A model generated the notes under the pieces. That model did not search any database, was not told the DNA's origin, and saw only the letters and a list, made by a program, of their open reading frames with translations. From an uncultured Clostridia bacterium (lineage in GTDB: Bacteria > Bacillota_A > Clostridia > TANB77 > CAG-508), in the NCBI GenBank assembly GCA_947625985.1, contig CANQQF010000027.1, forward strand, positions 1-18,703: a stretch of DNA of 18,703 nucleotides, read 5' to 3'. The stretch's first letter is position 1; each line of letters starts with the position of its first letter. Shown here in pieces: positions 4,638-4,731 of this stretch. The position numbers and the translations under genes are program-made.

Positions 4638-4650
4638 TAAAATAGATAAA

Positions 4651-4701
4651 ATGTATGATAGTTTTTTCATTCATATAACTTAACCTCTTATGTATGAAAA
4701 A
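4651..4701 (+). promoter_or_regulatory. Leader with mutually exclusive stem-loops
   Basis: ATGTATGA appears twice (4651-4658 and 4690-4697). Both copies can pair with the same middle segment (TCATTCAT, 4667-4674). The early pairing gives 7 of 8 base pairs with an 8-base loop. The later pairing extends to 12 of 13 pairs (4663-4675 with 4689-4701) and runs two bases into the terminator stem. The leader begins about 7 bases after the predicted transcription start. The geometry resembles an attenuator or an antitermination RNA, but function is inferred. Confidence 0.45.
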
Positions 4702-4731
4702 GGACTGGTAATAAGTATCAGTTCTTTTTTT
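4700..4731 (+). terminator. Strong intrinsic terminator ahead of the late operon
   Basis: AAGGACTGGTA (4700-4710) pairs with TATCAGTTCTT (4716-4726) as an uninterrupted 11-bp stem with two G-U pairs and a five-base loop (ATAAG), followed by a run of Ts to 4731. It ends two bases before the tRNA. It lies about 55-85 bases downstream of the predicted start of the late promoter, so late genes need readthrough or antitermination unless another promoter exists. Confidence 0.8.

Follow-up and report, generated by a model that had tools for sequence, protein, structure and literature searches.

A predicted terminator behind the late promoter of a Clostridia phage and a possible Q-like role for its RinA-like regulator

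How does transcription reach the late genes of a phage in which a terminator-like hairpin stands between the late promoter and those genes? This question is raised by an 18,703-nucleotide (nt) phage contig from an uncultured Clostridia bacterium (CANQQF010000027.1, assembly GCA_947625985.1; G+C content, 28%), the whole of which is called the window here. On its + strand, a regulator gene, tandem repeats, a promoter-like site, a leader, the terminator-like hairpin, tRNA-Met(CAT), and the terminase, portal, and major head genes follow one another (Table 1). In lambda, the late promoter is likewise followed by a short leader, a terminator, and the late operon, and a first-pass annotation of the window had proposed a comparable gate worked by an RNA switch. 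From the sequences of the window and its relatives, we give an even chance to a Q-like late gate in which the regulator would make polymerase terminator-resistant at the late promoter.

The promoter, the terminator, and the late operon beyond it, all named in that annotation, were found in the window. The promoter, TTGTCA-17-TATAAT, is the sole 11/12 match listed for the window, and its score in the 140 nt before the hairpin was equalled by 0 of 100 shuffles. The terminator behind it has arms at 4697-4710 and 4716-4729 (AAAAAGGACTGGTA / TATCAGTTCTTTTT) with two G-U pairs and a 5-nt loop, and runs into T4725-4731. Our own terminator scan found this hairpin at -12.3 kcal/mol; it is absent from the list of a simpler scan of the window, probably because the stem extends into the T-run. 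PHROG and Pfam matches identify the terminase, portal, and major head genes downstream of it. Upstream of the promoter, two clear copies of an imperfect direct repeat (TGTCCCCT type) are present, and these tandem repeats are likely to be binding sites of the regulator.

We collected relatives of the window's large terminase gene (terL) as 57 loci in viral contigs (47 to 80% identity in the best segment) and 22 loci in metagenome-assembled genomes, most of which bear names of Clostridia, Bacilli, or allied groups (individual loci carry L numbers below). From 42 hits of the regulator hidden Markov model (HMM), 25 loci were retained in which a regulator relative directly adjoins the gap before the terminase and which are non-redundant by terL-region identity or identical hits; 7 near-duplicates, 8 regulators not adjoining the gap, the partial L042, and the window open reading frame (ORF) at 3275 were dropped. 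Terminators were called with our own uncalibrated script. The 280 nt behind the regulator contained a terminator of -7 kcal/mol or better in 20 of the 25 loci, compared with 60 of 289 other ORF ends in the same loci (Fisher test, 3e-9; ORFs of at least 100 amino acids on the + strand, some perhaps not genes). Counted back from the small terminase gene (terS), a terminator was found within 700 nt in 26 of 34 non-redundant loci, compared with 124 of 435 other 700-nt stretches (Fisher test, 4e-8).

The elements in front of the terminator recur as well. Exact 6-mer direct repeats near the regulator stop were spaced at 9, 10, and 11 nt in 9, 5, and 3 loci, respectively, against about 0.3 each in shuffled sequence; this makes 17 locus-counts where 0.9 were expected, and the remaining spacings in the 7- to 30-nt range gave 7 locus-counts, which is chance level. 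The repeat sequence varies from lineage to lineage, as would be expected if the repeats are binding sites that evolve along with their regulator. Extended -10 boxes, scored separately after the plain -35/-10 scoring of the loci, occurred in 20 of 25 loci compared with 5.9 expected; the window's own match lies elsewhere than its promoter, and without it the count is 19 of 24. L004 (80% identity in terL) has the same kind of repeat, the -10 box, the 5' half of the leader, a ROOL RNA, then a terminator, and then a tRNA, and its terminator is that of the window with one G-U pair replaced by A-U. In the gap that separates the regulator, or the ORF standing in for it, from the gene that follows, a terminator behind a promoter-like site could be seen by eye in 12 of 15 named phages, namely, phi11, IPLA88, phi12, phi13, TP901-1, Tuc2009, 53801, Bacchus, 50902, 28201, Hujiaoplasma zrk29-2, and Anaerostipes AC844P2.

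Further predicted terminators stand inside the late regions. In loci with a regulator (21 on the early side, which was taken as everything before the regulator), we counted 41 intergenic terminators in 134 kb of late region and 4 in 93 kb of early region, an excess of about sevenfold per kb (P = 2.5e-6 by length and 4.6e-6 by non-coding length). Across 36 loci, internal late terminators on the coding strand numbered 77, compared with 26 on the opposite strand. The 110-nt stretches behind internal late terminators reached a promoter score of P ≤ 0.05 in 1 of 74 cases, compared with 9 of 25 leaders; the stretch behind 9342 in the window scored P = 0.06. In phi11, TP901-1, and AC844P2, respectively, early regions of 12, 9, and 9 kb contained 0, 0, and 1 terminators, and late regions of 26, 21, and 20 kb contained 3, 2, and 7; the late region of AC844P2 was delimited by position alone. 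This excess, with few promoters behind the late terminators, fits a prediction of processive antitermination. Together with the conservation of the leader terminator in relatives, it supports the lambda-like gate of the first-pass annotation, without the RNA switch that had been part of it.

The regulator has a sigma-70 region-4 domain (PF04545/PF08281, above cut-off), and its family profile matched RinA of phi11 (hhalign probability, 86%; E value, 5e-6); its AlphaFold2 model had a mean predicted local distance difference test (pLDDT) score of 84. Its gene is followed directly by the late promoter and the terminase genes, as expected of the Ltr/RinA type. By domain, profile, and position, we assign it as a predicted RinA-like late regulator with a sigma region-4 helix-turn-helix (HTH); the first-pass annotation had missed this nature of the gene and the tandem repeats that follow it. 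The regulator-family profile scored 1.8% in hhalign against Alt of TP901-1, and P0003, 60% identical to the window regulator, has a precomputed match to PF05263, the Pfam family of Alt. The regulator used as a query on viral contigs yielded no confirmed related DNA. The window ORF 3275-3766 was a second match of the regulator HMM (E value, 1.5e-20), has no Pfam family, and is perhaps a paralogue.

Direct repeats and a late promoter directly behind an Ltr/RinA-like gene are a known arrangement, as described in the available part of PMC13123087. The window shares the RinA profile match with this Ltr/RinA/Alt module (phi11 RinA, phi13 Ltr, and TP901-1 Alt) but has two to three repeat units at 11 nt instead of the four named in the accessible text of that paper, and a -35 box close to consensus where that module has an extended -10 box. 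In the text available, control of late genes by such a regulator is described as activation of initiation, and the word terminator is missing from the main text as far as it is accessible (PMC13123087). At the level of listings, a literature search returned no paper on a gate of this kind; the two main RinA and Ltr papers, beyond its reach, may mention a terminator.

With the lambdoid Q systems (lambda Q, Q21, and Q82), the window shares the order of promoter, leader, terminator, and operon, a predicted terminator between the late promoter and the late genes, and the equivalent place of the regulator gene. As in those systems, there are many predicted downstream terminators to pass in the window and its relatives, and an HTH like that of sigma region 4 is common to Q (PMC7171158, available part) and the window regulator. 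The window regulator, in contrast, was placed in none of the three Q families by the tests applied, and we claim no membership in them. These families have no significant sequence likeness and little structural likeness to one another, and the HTH is the sole part in which lambda Q is like Q21 and sigma region 4, according to the accessible part of PMC7171158; Q function can therefore arise on different proteins, as far as that account goes.

In the Q-like gate proposed here, the regulator would bind the repeats and recruit polymerase, as reported for Ltr and Alt proteins. Without it, both transcripts from the late promoter itself and read-through from the early operon would end near 4731, leaving the late genes and the tRNA off. 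A polymerase carrying, or altered by, the regulator would then ignore the hairpins at 4697-4731, 9314, and 11176, by analogy with lambdoid Q, and the tRNA behind the gate would be made only as part of the late transcript and then cut out. More broadly, RinA, Ltr, and Alt might be two-step factors that bring polymerase to promoters driven by repeats and afterwards travel with it as processive antiterminators, the travelling protein occupying the place of sigma region 4; we put this forward tentatively and consider it rather doubtful.

A conserved terminator behind the late promoter, followed by serial late terminators, would mean that polymerase must also pass stop signals, and a reporter ending at +50, as used for phi13 in the portion of PMC13123087 at hand, would not reveal this passage. 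The question is directly testable in well-known phages such as TP901-1. If the two-step reading of RinA, Ltr, and Alt holds, serial terminators in the late operon would be passed throughout a superfamily of Firmicutes phages, by a Q-like principle that evolved on another protein. Passage of the stop signals would also offer a reason for finding tRNAs and large RNAs like ROOL behind the late promoter, namely, expression with the late transcript.

Several observations weigh against the Q-like gate. Our script also calls terminators in the 124 of 435 background stretches, so that single calls are no proof. No terminator was called within 280 nt in 5 of the 25 loci (L004, where it lies beyond the ROOL RNA, L024, L069, L078, and Montmirail, L083). 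Among the named phages, Montmirail has no terminator in range, the terminator of D6E precedes the promoter-like site, and that of MM1, annotated by its depositors, is overlapped by the annotated promoter. Plain -35/-10 scores reached significance upstream of the terminator in 4 of 24 loci. Downstream of it, they did so in 3 of 18 (L013, L024, and L035), and in these three the terminator may precede the late promoter. L029, L032, L050, and L052 have internal late terminators and no leader terminator that we found, so leader and internal terminators are not tied to each other.

Other points concern the likeness to Q itself. A sigma-dependent pause-like element is part of lambda Q loading; such an element after the start was present in 8 of 19 leaders compared with 9.1 expected, which is no enrichment, and the window leader has one, but so do 86% of its shuffles. 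The regulator gave no match at 1e-3 to the Q Pfam families PF06530, PF03589, and PF06323. PF06530 matched 1 of its 28 relatives, at 9e-4, and the "Q-like" PHROG_79 gave weak matches to the window regulator (2e-5) and 4 of 28 family members. Among the Foldseek and VIA-align matches shown were sigma region-4 domains and coiled coils and no Q protein, which still leaves room for a Q fold.

Evidence from phi13 bears on the main rival, a leaky insulator, in which the hairpin would stop early read-through and damp basal late transcription while strong firing leaks through, with no antitermination. The late genes of phi13 depend on an experimentally mapped start, TSS23, which needs Ltr and the direct repeats, and Ltr acts on initiation in a reporter ending at +50, as stated in the accessible portion of PMC13123087. 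By the TATA-box distance given there, from which we derived the position of TSS23, the phi13 hairpin begins about 25 nt after this start, and the reporter therefore ends at about the T-run. Ltr is thus needed for initiation in a construct that stops at about the terminator, and further start sites lie within the late region (PMC13123087, part available). Plain activation plus leaky termination is therefore possible, which counts against the Q-like gate, and the internal terminators in the four loci without a leader terminator found also suit this rival. Yet an insulator would be better placed before the promoter, as in D6E, whereas most loci read have the terminator behind the promoter-like site, and serial terminators with rarely a promoter between them would starve the distal late genes. 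We regard the leaky insulator as a real possibility, short of a probable one.

The RNA switch had been proposed from two identical leader segments competing for one complementary segment, with the downstream pairing touching the terminator stem. Folding of the leader showed it to be more stable than shuffles (z, -2.73, owed mostly to the terminator hairpin) and revealed no switch that opens the terminator. Both ATGTATGA copies exist, but their repetition lies within the range of chance, a repeated 8-mer having occurred in 8% of leader shuffles; at least two ATGTATGA matches per whole window were found in 84 of 200 shuffles. The competing pairings are also real: copy 1 pairs with 4671-4677 (probability, 0.63 to 0.72), and copy 2 takes part in a helix of 4663-4675 with 4689-4701 (up to 0.47 in nascent RNA). 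This second helix, however, reaches the terminator only at A4697-4701, the foot of the stem. The 9-pair terminator core keeps a pair probability of 0.92 to 1.0 and can coexist with the second helix (-16.5 against -19.3 kcal/mol). The mutually exclusive terminator and antiterminator helices of an RNA-switch attenuator are not present in the window leader, and its pairings are no switch able to open the terminator.

Comparison with relatives points the same way. The leader was compared by alignment with one relative, L004, which keeps the repeats, the -10 box, and the leader part CATATAA..AACCTCTTAT but lacks the ATGTATGA copies; L006, as close as L004 in terL, has a leader that differs by eye. 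In L010, L014, and L044, a switch would scarcely fit into the roughly 13 to 18 nt between the predicted start and the hairpin. An Rfam scan of the window gave no regulatory-leader match near its cut-off, and its matches included no T-box, although the idea of tRNA sensing got no dedicated search. The short frames from ATG 4651 and 4690, considered as leader peptides, have no ribosome site by eye. We hold it very improbable that the two copies pair alternately to open or close the terminator. As candidates for a known leader RNA, weak matches to ncr1015 (25.5 bits; cut-off, 60) and mir-239 (22.9 bits; cut-off, 49) were taken as chance.

The remaining rival starts from tRNA-Met(CAT), which begins two bases after the T-run and was absent from the first-pass annotation. 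Hairpin and tRNA might form a punctuation cassette, in which RNase P would cut at the tRNA 5' end, so that the RNA upstream would end in a protective hairpin, and termination would be secondary. In 12 of 16 tRNAs, two of them in the window, the 45 nt immediately upstream folded better than shuffles (16 of 18 non-duplicate tRNAs were tested; the doubtful Ala call of TP901-1 and the Met of 53801 were left out), and the isotype changes while the position persists. The hairpin of L012, and by eye those of L079 and L083, have no T-run, which also suits processing. Against this, a tRNA was present in 5 of the 26 loci that had a terminator in the 700-nt count upstream of terS (5 of all 34 in that count), and it precedes the terminator in TP901-1, 53801, and Bacchus. 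We therefore consider the processing unit improbable.

Table 1. Features of the window discussed in the text
Feature	Position	Strand	Evidence
RinA/Ltr-like late regulator, 143 amino acids, C-terminal sigma-70 region-4 domain	4147..4578	+	PF04545/PF08281, PHROG_36, RinA profile match, AlphaFold2
Tandem direct repeats AAATGTCCCCT / AAGTGTCCCCT, 11-nt spacing; third degenerate copy by eye; putative regulator binding sites	4578..4610	+	Repeat analysis; two clear copies, 4578-4599
Predicted late promoter TTGTCA-17-TATAAT; predicted start near 4644	4609..4637	+	Motif scan
ATGTATGA copy 1	4651..4658	+	Repeat scan
ATGTATGA copy 2	4690..4697	+	Repeat scan
Predicted intrinsic terminator (hairpin and T-run), proposed gate	4697..4731	+	Folding, terminator scan
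tRNA-Met(CAT), CCA encoded	4734..4808	+	ARAGORN; Rfam RF00005, 62.3 bits (cut-off, 29)
Terminase small subunit (terS)	4902..5363	+	PHROG_309, E value 2e-35
Terminase large subunit (terL); query for related loci	5363..7153	+	PHROG_24361
Portal protein	7403..9163	+	PHROG_156
Predicted internal late terminator after portal gene, -11.2 kcal/mol	9314..9342	+	Terminator scan
Major head protein	10329..11177	+	PHROG_267, E value 1e-44; PF25209
Predicted internal late terminator after major head gene, -15.1 kcal/mol	11176..11209	+	Terminator scan
tRNA-Gln(TTG), directly behind terminator 11176..11209	11217..11290	+	tRNA search

Some relatives likewise carry tRNAs in the stretch that runs from the regulator, or from the last early ORF, to terS, and the isotype varies while the position stays. 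The isotypes in this slot are Met (window, L058, and 53801), Ile (L004 and L035), Pro (L036), Leu (L063), Trp (L079), Asn (L083), and Lys (TP901-1 and Bacchus). The tRNA follows the terminator in the window, L004, L035, and L058, the reverse of the order in the three phages named above. L004 also carries a ROOL RNA (4616-5208; Rfam RF03087, 297.6 bits) between its late promoter and the gate terminator; Rfam found none in the window. With isotypes, the ROOL RNA, and the order of tRNA and terminator varying in this way, the slot is one in which tRNAs and structured RNAs have settled repeatedly, and the promoter-terminator pair is the more constant element. RNAs of the ROOL/GOLLD type have been described near tRNA islands in phages, according to the available part of PMC12286853; L004 has its ROOL RNA in the leader discussed here, and the window has a tRNA and no ROOL RNA. 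Rfam was run on a part of the loci (13, then 15, six of these again permissively), and ROOL may occur in further loci outside that part.

By eye, the discriminator before the encoded CCA of tRNA-Met(CAT) is U. This is unusual for Met or Ile tRNAs, so charging of this tRNA is doubtful. A second pair of terminator and then tRNA is found at 11176-11290 in the window (Gln, behind the major head gene), at 11870-11979 in L004 (Trp), and at 12081-12196 in L058 (Asn).

Long unannotated non-coding stretches extend from leader to terS in L007, L012, L039, and L040 (also in L008, L036, L042, and L078), several of them bounded, by eye, by the complementary TATGTAGTGATATA / TATATCATTACATA. They had no Rfam match except tRNA (six scanned permissively) and possibly represent an undescribed structured phage RNA. 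In L006, at about 1455-1570 and directly behind the predicted late promoter, a module with T-arm, acceptor strands, and D-arm, closed by GGAAATT...AATTTCC, resembles, on visual inspection, a circularly permuted tRNA or a Y-RNA-like module; ARAGORN called no tRNA there. Finally, a GAAA-tetraloop hairpin, GTCAGAAATGGC, is not in the window's own leader and recurs in the late leaders or terminator loops of L012 (2917), L014 (520), L035 (5308), L095 (2017), and L096 (1809). Exact matches to CAGAAATGGC number 7 in 913 kb, and 5 of these are in leaders.
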